Position numbers and translations under genes: made by a program | Shown here: piece after piece, positions 23,340 to 59,152 of the stretch | Position numbering within the stretch: the first letter of the stretch is position 1 | How the letters are laid out: each line of letters opens with the position of its first letter | The notes under the pieces: generated by a model | The model's database searches: none | What the model saw: only the letters and a program-made list of their open reading frames with translations | Told to the model about the DNA's origin: nothing | Assembly (NCBI GenBank): GCA_002011125.2 | Contig: MTMF02000009.1 | Location: 426,006 to 490,005 of the forward strand | Source: Candidatus Hydrothermarchaeum profundi | GTDB taxonomy: Archaea > Hydrothermarchaeota > Hydrothermarchaeia > Hydrothermarchaeales > Hydrothermarchaeaceae | Direction of reading: 5' to 3' | Length of the DNA: 64,000 bases

Positions 23340-23369
23340 AAAGAAGGGATGGAGTCTCTAGAAATTTAT

Positions 23370-23465
23370 TTATCCAAATGGGTGGAAAAGCATCCCTATT
23401 ACCATAATCCCCAAGAAATAGGCTATTAAACCTCCAAAAACTATATATCCTAGCGCACTGGGCAT
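23370..23465 (-). CDS. 31-residue single-pass membrane peptide
   Basis: On the minus strand an ATG at 23465 stands 7 bp after a strong GGAGGTG and opens 31 codons ending in TAA. The peptide has one hydrophobic helix (about residues 6-26, with GYIVFGGLIAYFLGI), a small polar start and the tail FHPFG. The ribosome site, clean start and uninterrupted hydrophobic stretch argue that it is real despite its size. It is convergent with the aconitase small-subunit gene (30 bp between ends). It does not match a peptide family I recognise; tiny membrane subunits of oxidases or transporters have a similar look. Confidence 0.62.
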   Translation of the reverse strand: MPSALGYIVFGGLIAYFLGIMVIGMLFHPFG

Positions 23466-23740
23466 TTTATTTCACCTCCTTGAGCCTCTTTCTGTTGTTA
23501 TGTTCTTTTTACGTGAATATACTAATAGCGAAAAAAAAGAGTAAAATATATGTTAAATGTGATAAAAATAACTAAAAATCTCCGGATGTAATTTACAATT
23601 TTATTGATTTTTCCATAGAATTAAGTAATTAAAACGTAAAAAAGAGTTAACAACATATGTAAATTCGTAGTTTTAATTTAGTTAAACTTGTCCCTAAAAG
23701 ATACGGTTTTTATATTAGTATCTTTAACTATAAGTTCCAA
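23466..23740. other. AT-rich intergenic region between a small membrane gene and dph6
   Basis: This 275-bp spacer contains the ribosome site of the 31-codon minus-strand gene at its left end. Its rightmost part, with TTTTTATATTAGT near 23707-23719, probably serves as TATA element for a leaderless dph6 transcript. No further reading frame, repeat or tRNA-like fold is visible. Confidence 0.45.
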
Positions 23741-51710: not shown

Positions 51711-54700
51711 TTAATTGATGAAATCAGATAATGAAACCTGCTTCGCTGCATCATTATCGAAGACTGACGAAATACTCATTTCTATGATTTCAATTCTCTG
51801 GCGTAGATAATCTTCTAACCGGTAATCTTCTATTAAGGATTTAGTGACCTCAAGATATTTTTCAACAGAGCCCTTAGAAACCGTCAATACTAGTTTTCCT
51901 CCACCACATTTCCTACACTTCCCATTCAAAGGTACCCTCCGGTATTTTGTGTTGCAATTAACGCATCTAGTGGTTTGCTTTGAAAAAGCCCTTAAATTAC
52001 CCGCCAAATCAGGTAAAAAATGGCTTTCTATTACTCTACGCGCTACGTCTTTTTCATCCACGGCTCTTATTTTCTTGGCTAAATCAAGTTGATGACGCAC
52101 TTTTTCAAACATAGCTCCTAAGGTTTTATAGGAACTCATCACCGGTCCAGAAGAAATTTCACTAGTATCATGCGTAAACTTTAAGCCATAATACTGCTCT
52201 GGCTTTCCGATTCTATTAGATACCGTTTCTATTAAGCTTGCCATCTCCTGAGGACGAGCATATCTAAGACTAGCTTCAAAGAATTCTAAAGGATATTTTT
52301 CCACTATATCTAAATTGTGAGCCTCATCATCAATCTCAGCCGGATCTAGCTTCAATGTTAGAACTAAAGGAGCGTCCATTTTTCCTCCTCTTGTACTAGG
52401 TAGATATTTTTTAGAGAAATTAATCAAAGCATCAAGGAGAAGTATAACAGAATCCTCATCTCCATCACAGTTCCGTCGGCGCGCAGCATGAAAATAAGGA
52501 TGCGCATATCCAACATTAGCCTTACAAAATCCGATTATCCTGCCTAATATTGCCGCAGACGTATGAGGAGCCAAACCAATAACAAGGTGTCCTAAAAGGT
52601 CTTCCTTAGTTTCAGCTCTATAGAAGGGCTCTAGCCCGTATAGCTGAGTTAATAAATCGTCAACAAATTTAGCAACCCTGAGAAGATAATCAGCGCCTGC
52701 CTCAGGAAGTATTATATCCTGACACTTAAGCTCAACAATTTGGTCATCTCTCTCTAATGGCCTGCCTTTGTAGTCCTTTTCATATCCTAGTTCTTTCAGC
52801 TTCTCTACTGAAACATTAATTTCGGAAGGTCTGAAATGCGTTAGAGGAACATCAGTAGAATCAAATCTAATCGTTCCATCTTTAAAAACAAAAACTCTAT
52901 GTCTCGATCTTAAGATACCTTTTTCAAGTGGCTCAGGTATCTTAAATGATGACGTCATCCCTATAACTCCTTTTAAATCATTAAAGGCGTTGCCCACTTT
53001 TTTAACAGCCTCATTTAACTCCTCCCTAACATTTATCTCTCTTTCCTCAAAGCATTTAGTTGGAGCTGCACATGCCGGGTTTTTACAAATCTCAGTGTTA
53101 TTCTCATAAACTCTACCGCATTTAATACAGATTCTTTTTAGCTTAGTGACCTTTCCACACGTAGGGCAAAGGGTTTTAAAGGTGATTTTACCACACACCG
53201 GACAGCTTCTTCTTGCAATCTCTACTCTTATTTTGAAGTTTTGAGCAGCCTTCTTAACATCCCGTGTCCTACCTCCCTCTTGACCTACTGGGAAAAGTAC
53301 GTTAACAGGCGGTTGCATTTTTCTTTCCTTTGCTTTCTCCGGTCTTCCCATTCTAGCTCCAATATACGTAGGTGCCTTAGCCCTAACCTTTATACCAAAG
53401 CTATTAACAATTTCCATTACATCTAACGATTTATCAAAGACCTTATTGAATTGATCCATAGAAAAATCCTGTATTCCTAAAACTCTTAATAGCGCTTTAT
53501 ATTCCTCTATTATTATATTATTGCCTTTAACGCTATGCGGTACTCCAAGTACTTCTAGAACCCTTTTTGCATCAGACTTTTTTAAGACAAGGGCGTCGCT
53601 TTCAATTTGACCTTGGCATAGCCATTCACACAGTTTTTTAAGATCATCTTTTTCTATGTCATGATAAAAGTAAGTATATCTTGGATGAAGAGGTATTGCA
53701 AGTTCTTCTGATATCTTTAAAGCTACTTCTTGGGAAGGTATCCTTTTTCTATCAATATACTCTCTAAATTTCCCACTATCTGCCTCCTCCAACTCTTGAA
53801 TCCACCACTCTTCCACATAGCCGGACGGCATTAGAACATGATTATTTTCCAAAAAATCTCCAAAACTAACTAGGATGTCCCCCAAAAAAAGAATCTCCTT
53901 TATACTATCCTTCACTCTTTCTGCTTCTTCTTCGCTTTCAACTCTAATAACGCTTCCATCTACCAGCTTAACTATAGGTCCTTCAATTTCATCGCATGGT
54001 GTTATTGCTGAACCTTTACCGGGCCTCTCGGTTTTTATTTGAGTTCCAATAGCAATAAACCCGTCTAGCAAAATCATCGTAGCTGGGTGCAACGAGCATG
54101 CTGCCAGACCCGAATTCCTACACCTACCGTATCTTAATCTTAATCCTCCCTTCCTAGAAGGATGAGACAAAACCGGTCTACCAGCTATTAAGTCTTTAAT
54201 ATACTTATAATTAGGGCTTATTTCAATATTACTTTCGACTCTTTCTACTTTTGAGTTATTAATCTCTCTGAGCCATTCCCATCCCTTTAGATCAAGTTTT
54301 TCAACGTATTTCAATATTTTAGGCGCTTTCTGAAGAACTCCTTCTGCTAATGCAAGAATAGCTCCTCCTCTTAGTTGATTTGTTTCAACTCTTGGGAGGT
54401 CTCTATACCCAGAGACCTCTATTTTATCTGTTGACTCGCCAGTAATTTCAATAGGGATATTTCTTACTGCTAACCGCGTTTCCTTTGCACTAGGAAGATA
54501 CTGAAGTCTAGCGGCTTCTTGGTTATATAAATCCACTTCCTCTACGAATCTCTCTATCTCATCGCTAGTAGGTTTATATCTATCTAGACCAACTGCTCTT
54601 CTAATATAATCTCCGGTTAACACAGCAAGAGCTTGAGCAGATCCTCCTGCAGATCTTATAGGCCCCGCAAAATAAATAGCCAAATATTTTGAGCCATCTA

Positions 54701-55073
54701 AATTTTTTTTAACTTTAACTTTAACTATACCTTCTAGCGGAGCGGCTACAATTCCTTCAGTAAGTATCGCTAGGGAAGTTCTTATTGCCTGTTCTGAGGC
54801 TTCTTCTAATGAAGAAAAATTTTGAAATTTACCTTCCACAATTTCTTTAGCAATTTTAAGAGAGGCCTCCTCCTTTGACATGCTAGAAGTCAATTCTCGA
54901 ATTCTATTAGAAATGCCGGGAGGACCAACTAATCCTTCTACCCTCTCCGCTAGATCTTTAGCTAATGGTATCTCTGGGTCTAACTCGGGGTCATAACCTC
55001 GCTTCCTTGCCTTACGAGCTACCTCATATGCTTTTTCAACCTCCTCTTCCAGTTTTTTAAAATATAACATCAT
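51711..55073 (-). CDS. polC: DNA polymerase II (family D) large subunit DP2
   Basis: DP2 holds the polymerase active site of PolD, a replicative polymerase of Euryarchaeota. The catalytic N868-x-D870-x-D872 is in NCDGDED. A cysteine-rich zinc region (about 624-678, CPVCG, CPTCG, CIKCG) and a C-terminal zinc module (about 1036-1062) are present. At 1120 residues it is intein-free and complete. The C-terminus QVSLSDFI (1112-1119) is a PCNA-interacting peptide. The first ATG codons overlap the DP1 stop by 4 bp. Confidence 0.97.
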   Translation of the reverse strand: MMLYFKKLEEEVEKAYEVARKARKRGYDPELDPEIPLAKDLAERVEGLVGPPGISNRIRELTSSMSKEEASLKIAKEIVEGKFQNFSSLEEASEQAIRTSLAILTEGIVAAPLEGIVKVKVKKNLDGSKYLAIYFAGPIRSAGGSAQALAVLTGDYIRRAVGLDRYKPTSDEIERFVEEVDLYNQEAARLQYLPSAKETRLAVRNIPIEITGESTDKIEVSGYRDLPRVETNQLRGGAILALAEGVLQKAPKILKYVEKLDLKGWEWLREINNSKVERVESNIEISPNYKYIKDLIAGRPVLSHPSRKGGLRLRYGRCRNSGLAACSLHPATMILLDGFIAIGTQIKTERPGKGSAITPCDEIEGPIVKLVDGSVIRVESEEEAERVKDSIKEILFLGDILVSFGDFLENNHVLMPSGYVEEWWIQELEEADSGKFREYIDRKRIPSQEVALKISEELAIPLHPRYTYFYHDIEKDDLKKLCEWLCQGQIESDALVLKKSDAKRVLEVLGVPHSVKGNNIIIEEYKALLRVLGIQDFSMDQFNKVFDKSLDVMEIVNSFGIKVRAKAPTYIGARMGRPEKAKERKMQPPVNVLFPVGQEGGRTRDVKKAAQNFKIRVEIARRSCPVCGKITFKTLCPTCGKVTKLKRICIKCGRVYENNTEICKNPACAAPTKCFEEREINVREELNEAVKKVGNAFNDLKGVIGMTSSFKIPEPLEKGILRSRHRVFVFKDGTIRFDSTDVPLTHFRPSEINVSVEKLKELGYEKDYKGRPLERDDQIVELKCQDIILPEAGADYLLRVAKFVDDLLTQLYGLEPFYRAETKEDLLGHLVIGLAPHTSAAILGRIIGFCKANVGYAHPYFHAARRRNCDGDEDSVILLLDALINFSKKYLPSTRGGKMDAPLVLTLKLDPAEIDDEAHNLDIVEKYPLEFFEASLRYARPQEMASLIETVSNRIGKPEQYYGLKFTHDTSEISSGPVMSSYKTLGAMFEKVRHQLDLAKKIRAVDEKDVARRVIESHFLPDLAGNLRAFSKQTTRCVNCNTKYRRVPLNGKCRKCGGGKLVLTVSKGSVEKYLEVTKSLIEDYRLEDYLRQRIEIIEMSISSVFDNDAAKQVSLSDFIN

Positions 55074-56563
55074 AAGAACTCCATTTTAATAGTCTTAAGC
55101 TCAGAAAGGTCAATTATTGGAACTTTTCCTGGAGTTGGGATCATGTTCAGTTTCCTCTGAAATGATGTTTGATCCTGAAAGGTACCAGAATTTATAAGGG
55201 TTACTCCCCTATATTGAGCCCATCCATAGTGGTGTACATGTCCTAAGTGGAGAATATCCGGAAGATCTTCTATAACCATATAGTCCATGCTCTCCGGGGC
55301 TAAGGGAATTTTTCCCCCATAGATGGGAGTTAAATGCCTTTTCCTAAGAAGCTCTAACATTGCTTTTTCTGGCTTAGAATAAGAGTGATCCGGTAATGTT
55401 GAAATTATGTCATCTAGACTTCTCCCATGGTATGAAAGGACTTCAACTCCATGAAATGTAGTTCTACAGGGATTGCCGACCATATGAAATCTAGAGTTTT
55501 CATAGAATCTAGGTGCAAAATCCTGGCTTATAGCAGGCTGAGGTTCTGCTTGTCTAACCGCATCGTGATTTCCAGGAAGAACTATTATCTCGATATAATC
55601 TGGAATCTCCTCTAAAAAATCTGCGACTCTCTTATATTGCTGAGTAATATCTTTTATAACTAATTCCTTTTCTTGGCCTGGATAAACTCCCACTCCATCT
55701 ACAAGGTCTCCACCAATGAGTAGATATTTTATCCTTTCTGCTAGATTCTTGTGTTTTAGACTCCCCATTTCACCTTTTAGCCACTTTATGAACTTAGTGA
55801 AAACTTCCTCTAAAAATTTAGTACTGCCCATATGAATATCTGATATTAAAGCTAAACAGAGGGGAACATCGCTCTTATTGGCTTCTTTATTTATGGGCAG
55901 ATCAGGGAACAAAATCTCTTCGGCAATAACCATGTCATTCCACATTCTTCCTACAACGCCGATTACCTCGTCTTTTACAAGGGAATTAGAAACTTTCAAT
56001 AAGTCTCCATCATTTTTACTGAGTAATACAGTGATAGTGCCCGTAAGATCTTCTAGCTCTAGAAGGAGATGTCCTTTTTTACTCCATCTTATATCTGATA
56101 TCATCCCAATTAATCTAACGTCATCTCGGCTTCTTCTGCGGAGGTCTTCTATATTAGCGGCATCTTTAAGTTGCTCTCTGACCCTAAGTATGTTAGAAAT
56201 TTTTTCAAATCTATCCTGGAAATATTTAACAAATCCTTGGATATCCCCATTAGAAAAGGATCTATTTGTAATATCTAGTTCATTTTTTATTCTAAGTTCG
56301 GCGTCATACTCTTCGGCTAATGCTCTTTTCCTTTTTTTAAAAACAACTACATTATTTTCATTCTTTTCAAGAGAAGAGCCATTATTTTTTTTTAAAATAG
56401 TAATCTGCTCTACTGTTATTACGTTTTTGTTTTCTAGTTTTGTAAGTTTAGAAAGAATCCTCTCTATTTCGGAATCATCCATTTTTTTAAGCTCTTCTAA
56501 TGCAAGAGGATGTAAGTTTAAATTTCCTTCCAAAAATCTGCTAATTATTTCAATATCATCCAT
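55070..56563 (-). CDS. polB: DNA polymerase II (family D) small subunit DP1
   Basis: DP1 is the proofreading subunit of PolD. An OB fold (about residues 150-225) precedes a calcineurin-like phosphoesterase with intact metal sites: SDIHMGS near 242, GGDLVDG near 288, PGNHDAV near 330 and LGHVHHYG near 440. Unlike eukaryotic B subunits the 3'-5' exonuclease should be active. The N-terminal 130 residues are charged and probably flexible. It lies 18 bp downstream of orc1 and overlaps DP2 by 4 bp, giving one transcript. Confidence 0.97.
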   Translation of the reverse strand: MDDIEIISRFLEGNLNLHPLALEELKKMDDSEIERILSKLTKLENKNVITVEQITILKKNNGSSLEKNENNVVVFKKRKRALAEEYDAELRIKNELDITNRSFSNGDIQGFVKYFQDRFEKISNILRVREQLKDAANIEDLRRRSRDDVRLIGMISDIRWSKKGHLLLELEDLTGTITVLLSKNDGDLLKVSNSLVKDEVIGVVGRMWNDMVIAEEILFPDLPINKEANKSDVPLCLALISDIHMGSTKFLEEVFTKFIKWLKGEMGSLKHKNLAERIKYLLIGGDLVDGVGVYPGQEKELVIKDITQQYKRVADFLEEIPDYIEIIVLPGNHDAVRQAEPQPAISQDFAPRFYENSRFHMVGNPCRTTFHGVEVLSYHGRSLDDIISTLPDHSYSKPEKAMLELLRKRHLTPIYGGKIPLAPESMDYMVIEDLPDILHLGHVHHYGWAQYRGVTLINSGTFQDQTSFQRKLNMIPTPGKVPIIDLSELKTIKMEFL

Positions 56564-57823: not shown

Positions 57824-58050
57824 ACGAAACCCCGGCCTTTAATTTCATGTTTTCACCCACAGCTCCATAAGAAATAAAGGTTTTCTGTAAAACTTCGTAG
57901 TAGAGATAGTTTAAATTAATATTTAATGCTTTTGTGTCGACAACTAATACTTCCTATGGAGTTAATTATCTTGAGTAATTTAAAGGGTAAGGTAGCCCCG
58001 AAAGATTGTTTAAAAAATTATTGCAAAAATATTTAATGACAAGAGGGTAT

Positions 58051-58069
58051 TATTTCCACTGGAAATTTG
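58051..58069 (-). repeat. ORB-like repeat, copy 1
   Basis: TATTTCCACTGGAAATTTG; inner dyad ATTTCCA-C-TGGAAAT at 58052-58066. It is identical over 19 bases to copy 2. The flanking G-string is on the other side (GAGGG at 58043-58047), so it looks like a mini-ORB dyad rather than a full ORB. Confidence 0.75.
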
Positions 58070-58095
58070 ACTGTTTTAATATTTCTATACCCTTA

Positions 58096-58114
58096 TATTT
58101 CCACTGGAAATTTG
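58096..58114 (-). repeat. ORB-like repeat, copy 2
   Basis: TATTTCCACTGGAAATTTG; inner dyad at 58097-58111. On the minus strand it is followed by ATAAGGGTAT, which resembles the G-rich arm that Orc1 winged-helix domains contact in full ORB elements. This fixes its orientation toward orc1. Confidence 0.78.
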
Positions 58115-58368
58115 CAGAATACTGTGTGTGCTTTAAATACTGGAGATATTCCAACGACAAAATTTAAAAAGGAATTTATTAATGTCTCCTTTAGCATATT
58201 TACTTCATATAATAACTTACTGTTTTTATTCAAAAATTTATCCGACTTAATAAGTTTTCAATAAATATTTATAGTAGTAAGTGAAAGAAAAGATAGGGGA
58301 TTTTTGATTAAAACTTTTTTGTAATACCATTATAGTAATTTATTTGCATTAGAAATATAGGGGTCTCT

Positions 58369-58893
58369 CTAGTATTCCAGCTTATTTAGCTGTTGTCGTA
58401 ATTTATCCAATTTCACTTTTATTGGCTTTAAACCTTCAGCATCATGATTCTCAAATAAAAACCTATATAGAGAATGATATTTTATTGACAAATCAAAATA
58501 TCGTAATTCTAATTTTTTTGGGTCTTCATAGTGCTTAATTAAATCTTCCTTCAAAAAGTTGATGTCATTTTCAAGATCTTTAATTATTCTCTGTGAAAAA
58601 AGATCCCATTTAACTATAGAATGATCTCTTCTTGTAAAACCTTTTTCTATTATTATTTTACTGACAGAGTAATCTTCATAAGGTTCCGAGTTTCCTAAAA
58701 TATATCCGAGTTTATTCTCCGAATTCTCTTCTGGAAAAATCTTATAAATTATGTATTCGTTTTCAAGCTCTTCTAAATAATTATTCAATATTTTTAAATT
58801 CTTTCTGTCAGTTAGTTCATTCCAAACTATCTCAATTTCATCATTAAAAGCAATAAAGAGCGAGTATACTATAGAAAGTATTAATTTTTTCAT
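58369..58893 (-). CDS. Hypothetical protein next to the candidate origin
   Basis: A 174-residue charged protein that I do not recognise. The N-terminus has a hydrophobic stretch (KKLILSIVYSLFIAF), and the rest is rich in Glu, Lys, Tyr and Leu with helical character; the C-terminal third (KVKLDKLRQQLNKL) could form a coiled coil. It is AT-richer than its neighbours and has no cysteine or evident catalytic motif. It starts 4 bp after the UPF0147 gene on the same strand and ends at the edge of the candidate origin region. It may be lineage-specific or recently acquired. Confidence 0.6.
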   Translation of the reverse strand: MKKLILSIVYSLFIAFNDEIEIVWNELTDRKNLKILNNYLEELENEYIIYKIFPEENSENKLGYILGNSEPYEDYSVSKIIIEKGFTRRDHSIVKWDLFSQRIIKDLENDINFLKEDLIKHYEDPKKLELRYFDLSIKYHSLYRFLFENHDAEGLKPIKVKLDKLRQQLNKLEY

Positions 58894-58897
58894 CTAA

Positions 58898-59152
58898 TTA
58901 ACTTATTTTGATAGTTTCTAATTCGCTCGACACATTCCATACGATAGTCCTAGCATGAATAGGAAGATTTCTATCGTTACTAATCTCTTCTAGTATGTAT
59001 ATTGCAGAAGAAACTCTTACCCCTAAATCCTCCTTATCGTTTAAAAGTATATTTTTTGCTTCTTCTGCCGATCTTCTAATATTTCTAGGAACAGAAGTGT
59101 CTTCAATAAGCTGATCTAAAACTTCTGCTACCTGTTTTATTTTCTTCTCCAT
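58898..59152 (-). CDS. UPF0147 family protein
   Basis: An 84-residue helical protein matching the archaeal UPF0147 family: LDQLIEDTSVPRNIRRSAEEAK, then DLGVRVSSAIYILEEISNDRNLPIHARTIVW (split across two conserved helices). The function is unknown; family members are widespread in Euryarchaeota and usually sit near information-processing genes, as here. It diverges from the zinc-ribbon protein gene across 48 bp. Confidence 0.93.
   Translation of the reverse strand: MEKKIKQVAEVLDQLIEDTSVPRNIRRSAEEAKNILLNDKEDLGVRVSSAIYILEEISNDRNLPIHARTIVWNVSSELETIKIS

Follow-up and report, generated by a model that had tools for sequence, protein, structure and literature searches.

A predicted oriC1-type replication origin beside orc1-dp1-dp2 in Candidatus Hydrothermarchaeum profundi

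Results

Gene content and conservation of the locus

The window analysed here is a 64,000-nucleotide stretch of the Candidatus Hydrothermarchaeum profundi genome (contig MTMF02000009.1, here C9, positions 426006-490005); the contig measures 1.92 Mb and the genome 2.19 Mb, rated 97.65% complete, and order-mates of this archaeon carry the labels Euryarchaeota or Candidatus Hydrothermarchaeota. Positions 57824-58368 of the window form a 545-bp stretch between orc1 and an uncharacterised ORF, an intergenic region directly adjoining orc1/cdc6 as at oriC1-type origins (Table 1). The first-pass annotation had called it the longest gene-free stretch, which holds at an ORF threshold of 75 aa and fails at 90 aa, where 618 bp at the window edge exceed it. 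The ORF list places a single frame in it, 65 aa long with a TTG start (58067-58264) and with no Pfam match, and a tRNA and Rfam search of the window gave zero matches. The AT-rich flank described in the same annotation is borne out by a GC content of 27.7%, against 37.1% for the whole window. The window's second-longest ORF-free stretch, 401 bp at 23340-23740, includes an AT-rich 200 bp at 20.5% GC.

Pfam matches to Cdc6_C and Cdc6_lid identify the neighbouring gene as a true orc1/cdc6, as first annotated. The nearest solved chains to its product are 2qby_A (S. solfataricus Orc1-1, the closest) and 2v1u_A (A. pernix ORC1), and the alignment with both extends through the winged-helix end; both structures contain origin DNA. 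Downstream lie the two DNA polymerase D genes, and the locus thus reads, as in Thermococcales, predicted origin, then cdc6, DP1 and DP2 in one direction, a resemblance of loci and not a taxonomic membership. The cdc6-DP1-DP2 operon order is known in Thermococcus (PMC5663688), and in euryarchaea the linkage of cdc6 to DP1 at origins has long been noted (PMC2643942).

Table 1. Features of the predicted origin locus (window coordinates)
Feature	Position	Strand	Evidence or remarks
Putative origin region, gene-free, between orc1 and upstream ORF	57824..58368	.	no ORF of at least 75 aa; 27.7% GC; inside skew breakpoint interval
orc1/cdc6, initiator, 413 aa	56582..57823	-	Pfam Cdc6_C 1.5e-32, Cdc6_lid 8.6e-31
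dp1, DNA polymerase D small subunit	55070..56563	-	Pfam DNA_pol_E_B 5.2e-18
dp2, DNA polymerase D large subunit	51711..55073	-	Pfam PolC_DP2_cat 2.7e-147
Predicted ORB A, TTTCCAGTGGAAATAATACCCTCTTG, holds most of 19-mer copy 1	58040..58065	-	rank 3 with motif from relatives (~1.03 Mb); best match of published Thermococcaceae motif, 18/20
Predicted ORB B, TTTCCAGTGGAAATATAAGGGTATAG, holds most of 19-mer copy 2	58085..58110	-	rank 1 (~1.03 Mb), 23.9 bits; best match of published Common and Sulfolobaceae motifs, 18/20
Predicted ORB C, TTTGCATTAGAAATATAGGGGTCTCT, inverted relative to A and B	58343..58368	+	rank 7; 16-bp block GAGACCCCTATATTTC identical in closest relative (L016)
Predicted ORB D, GCTCCATAAGAAATAAAGGTTTTCTG, just upstream of orc1 start	57862..57887	+	rank 25; same-orientation orc1-proximal boxes in many relatives
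Possible weak ORB half-site, ACTCCATAGGAAGTATTAGTTGTCGA	57937..57962	-	score 11.4 (rank 141 among 2.07 million positions); possibly a chance match
AT-rich stretch, candidate duplex unwinding element	58111..58342	.	between inverted boxes B and C; 58124-58342 at 22.8% GC

The linkage of orc1 to dp1 is kept in most of the relatives fetched. The gene order glyS, p27-like gene, UPF0147 gene, ORF, origin, orc1, dp1 is shared with L016, whose Orc1 is 77% identical and which is the closest of the relatives retrieved together with flanking genes. Alignment of the two intergenic regions places boxes at A, B and C, with the C block unchanged. The outer inverted box also occurs in four further relatives (L018, L019, L051 and L059); in three of them (L018, L019 and L059) it directly adjoins the end of the upstream ORF. 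Boxes immediately ahead of the orc1 start are common among the relatives.

Repeats and predicted origin recognition boxes

Two exact copies of TATTTCCACTGGAAATTTG lie at 58051-58069 and 58096-58114. They had been reported as identical 19-mers 45 bp apart, which is their start-to-start distance, the gap between them being 26 bp. Shuffled sequence gives an expectation of 0.06 occurrences with up to three mismatches in the window, against the two exact copies seen. Across the 2.19-Mb genome the exact 19-mer is confined to this locus, with three weaker sites (two to three mismatches) elsewhere, so the scatter of further copies that would have weakened the first annotation was not observed; the core TTCCACTGGAAA has four exact occurrences, two of them here. 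Copy 2 carries the arm claimed for it on the minus strand, reading TTCCAGTGGAAATATAAGGG, and in copy 1 the same dyad is followed by AATACCC.

We derived a held-out motif from up to 700 bp upstream of orc1 in 16 relatives of the same order or class, the window being excluded. An EM search was seeded with random 24-mers from these upstream sequences, and all of the best seeds gave one motif resembling an origin recognition box (ORB), TTCCAcTGGAAATaaAGG. Both strands of ~1.03 Mb of the genome (2.07 million positions) were then scored with the refined 26-column matrix, by which B ranked first, A third, C seventh and D 25th, rank 5 being the palindrome of ORB A read in reverse. Four of the megabase's best boxes are thus packed into 545 bp, and no second comparable cluster was found in the sampled ~1.03 Mb. 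A match at C9:1910900 was set aside as an ORB, falling as it does within a gene that reads like threonyl-tRNA synthetase.

Published ORB expressions from Ori-Finder 2/DoriC (PMC4164010), scanned over the same sample, agreed with the held-out motif. The Common and Sulfolobaceae motifs each had their single best match at ORB B (18/20), the first Thermococcaceae motif had its single best match at ORB A (18/20), and two of the three perfect matches of the second Thermococcaceae motif are the 19-mers. Copy 1, in which the GGG arm is missing, thus best fits the Thermococcaceae form of the box. With both kinds of motif, the repeats, first proposed as ORB-like dyads, group with the ORB family, and the locus is enriched in ORBs of known motif, as oriC1-type origins are (at least two such boxes). 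Could the 19-mer pair nevertheless be a chance or unrelated repeat in AT-rich intergenic DNA? There are just two exact copies, and two-copy repeats often arise by chance; against this, the 19-mer is unique in the genome, independent motifs rank its copies at the top and the box positions are conserved in the closest relative. A chance repeat is therefore barely credible.

The first-pass annotation had missed two boxes, the inverted ORB C and the orc1-proximal ORB D, the latter ~40-65 bp before the orc1 start codon. With C included, the layout is that of an oriC1-type origin: A and B lie on the minus strand and C on the plus strand at the opposite side of an AT-rich stretch, and the lowest-GC 200 bp of the 64 kb (58159-58358, 19.5% GC) falls between B and C, its end overlapping C. 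Such a position is as expected of an unwinding element, for which this segment is a candidate, and inverted ORBs flanking an AT-rich element are a standard design, functionally shown in Sulfolobus oriC1 (PMC12141716). Two details of the boxes count against the reading as an origin, namely that ORB A is without a GGG arm and that the dyad of ORB C is degenerate.

GC skew

The third-codon-position GC skew was calculated per gene, with coding-strand bias fitted separately, over sampled stretches that together cover roughly half of the contig. Two arms stand out: from 484 kb to 1.55 Mb the gene-oriented skew is +0.18 for forward genes and +0.03 for reverse genes, and outside this interval it is the opposite. 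A two-breakpoint fit places the origin at 488 kb (95% bootstrap 476.2-501.5 kb) and the terminus at 1.535 Mb (1.526-1.564), with a gain of 204.8 versus a maximum of 11.2 in 300 gene-order permutations. The skew inflection by which the first annotation proposed to check the site was therefore found, and its interval includes the feature (484.06 kb), which lies at the extreme of strand composition as oriC1-type origins do; with the breakpoint set to 485.1 kb, next to the feature, the score is 204.2, hardly below the best value. The pattern fits one bidirectional origin. Counting against the reading as an origin, the interval spans ~25 kb, with the best point 4 kb off the feature; the skew by itself cannot separate 57824-58368 from regions within ~25 kb, and this region is chosen within the interval because of the box and layout evidence. 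In one relative (G013) the skew around orc1 is too weak for the same analysis. A Pyrococcus-like dif sequence, sought as confirmation of the terminus, was not found.

The width of this interval (476-502 kb) leaves room for a reading in which the boxes are mere operators of the orc1-dp1-dp2 promoter, bound by Orc1 or another dyad-binding regulator, with the active origin elsewhere within ~20 kb; ORB D and the similar boxes of relatives do sit just before the orc1 start. However, boxes A, B and C are 217-545 bp away from orc1 and inverted around the AT-richest 200 bp, which exceeds the needs of a promoter, no such cluster exists anywhere else in the sampled genome, and in Pyrococcus and Sulfolobus the ORB clusters adjacent to orc1 have been proven to be origins (PMC4010727, PMC12141716). 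We regard the operator reading as very unlikely. A relict or dormant origin, which shaped the skew in the past while replication now starts from several places or by recombination, the mode reported for T. kodakarensis, is highly improbable. Skew is a record of history and not of present use, and in T. kodakarensis replication proceeds in the absence of cdc6 and the presumed origin (PMC5663688), but the boxes here remain intact, relatives have matching ones, and the skew switches sharply.

A second, distant Cdc6/Orc paralogue (L007:574-1680, C9:1870890-1871981) is 32% identical to Orc1. At this gene (~1.871 Mb) we found no skew switch, no ORB cluster and no top-scoring box nearby; lacking a skew switch and such a box, it is an unlikely site for a second origin.

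Discussion

Three independent tests, the skew flip, the held-out and published motifs, and the conservation of gene order and box layout in relatives, support the origin function first proposed for this region. In all likelihood, 57824-58368 is a chromosomal replication origin of the oriC1/Orc1-1 type, and the locus is very probably the single point at which copying of the chromosome starts. Its design is canonical and standard among archaea, a solid annotation without surprise. The product of the adjacent gene, Orc1, would occupy ORBs A and B at one flank of the AT-rich element (approximately 58111-58342) and the inverted ORB C at the other flank. With the help of Orc1 the element would melt and MCM would be loaded, giving rise to two divergent forks, of which the left-moving one would be co-directional with orc1-dp1-dp2. 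Through ORB D, Orc1 may act on its own promoter, a form of autoregulation. Use of the predicted origin in growing cells is not guaranteed, given that the homologous origin and cdc6 of T. kodakarensis are dispensable (PMC5663688).

The arrangement resembles the oriC of Pyrococcus and Thermococcus in that the origin lies directly upstream of cdc6, followed by both PolD genes, in the box dyad TTCCAGTGGAAA and, for Pyrococcus, in the single bidirectional origin (PMC4010727, PMC5663688, PMC4164010). It differs in lineage and in the upstream genes, here UPF0147 and an uncharacterised ORF; unlike the CTC arm of Thermococcaceae, B and C carry the common GGG, and only A approaches CTC. As in Sulfolobus oriC1 (ORB3-DUE-ORB2), inverted ORBs surround an AT-rich element beside orc1-1 (PMC12141716), and among solved structures the Sulfolobus Orc1-1 (2qby_A) is nearest to the Orc1 described here; in contrast to Sulfolobus, there is no sign of two further origins, the sampled contig having a single skew minimum and a single box cluster linked to cdc6. 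Haloarchaeal oriC1-cdc6 likewise has inverted ORBs with G-rich ends around an AT-rich element beside cdc6 (PMC4010727, PMC3528665), whereas the G arm of the present boxes is short (GGG or GGGG) and is missing from ORB A, and no cluster of many cdc6-linked origins is present.

No earlier report of an origin in Hydrothermarchaeota was found in the literature searched. From sequence alone, with a strong skew signal, the prediction gives a location for the replication origin in an uncultured archaeal lineage that has been little studied, and would extend the single-origin, orc1-dp1-dp2 arrangement of Thermococcales to a Hydrothermarchaeota lineage. The ORB model of this lineage may serve to locate origins in fragmentary relatives.

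Single ORB-like dyads with TATACCC after them were observed at two other places, C9:1851607 (L005:1501-1519), 39 bp upstream of a hel308-like gene, and C9:1629403 (L003:1501-1519), near an Lrp-like regulator; the CCC-arm dyad of ORB A resembles both. We speculated that the two kinds of box, the GGG-arm ORBs (B, C) and the CCC-arm dyad (A), might be read by different initiators, Orc1 and the second Cdc6 paralogue (C9:1870890), which would couple the start of replication to the expression of other genes, an idea that we consider quite unlikely. The palindrome upstream of hel308, at C9:1851610, was rejected as a conserved Orc1 regulatory site, since a search upstream of hel308 in the relatives found no comparable box.

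The 174-aa ORF adjoining the predicted origin (58369-58893, minus strand) is without a Pfam match and has homologous ORFs in the same place in three relatives (L016, L018 and L059; 33-41% identity); by its position it is an uncharacterised family with a putative link to the origin. The UPF0147 gene (58898-59152, minus strand) is two genes from the origin. UPF0147 is also found near orc1 in Candidatus Methanoperedens (L022, L024 and L025), and its link to orc1 therefore extends past this order.
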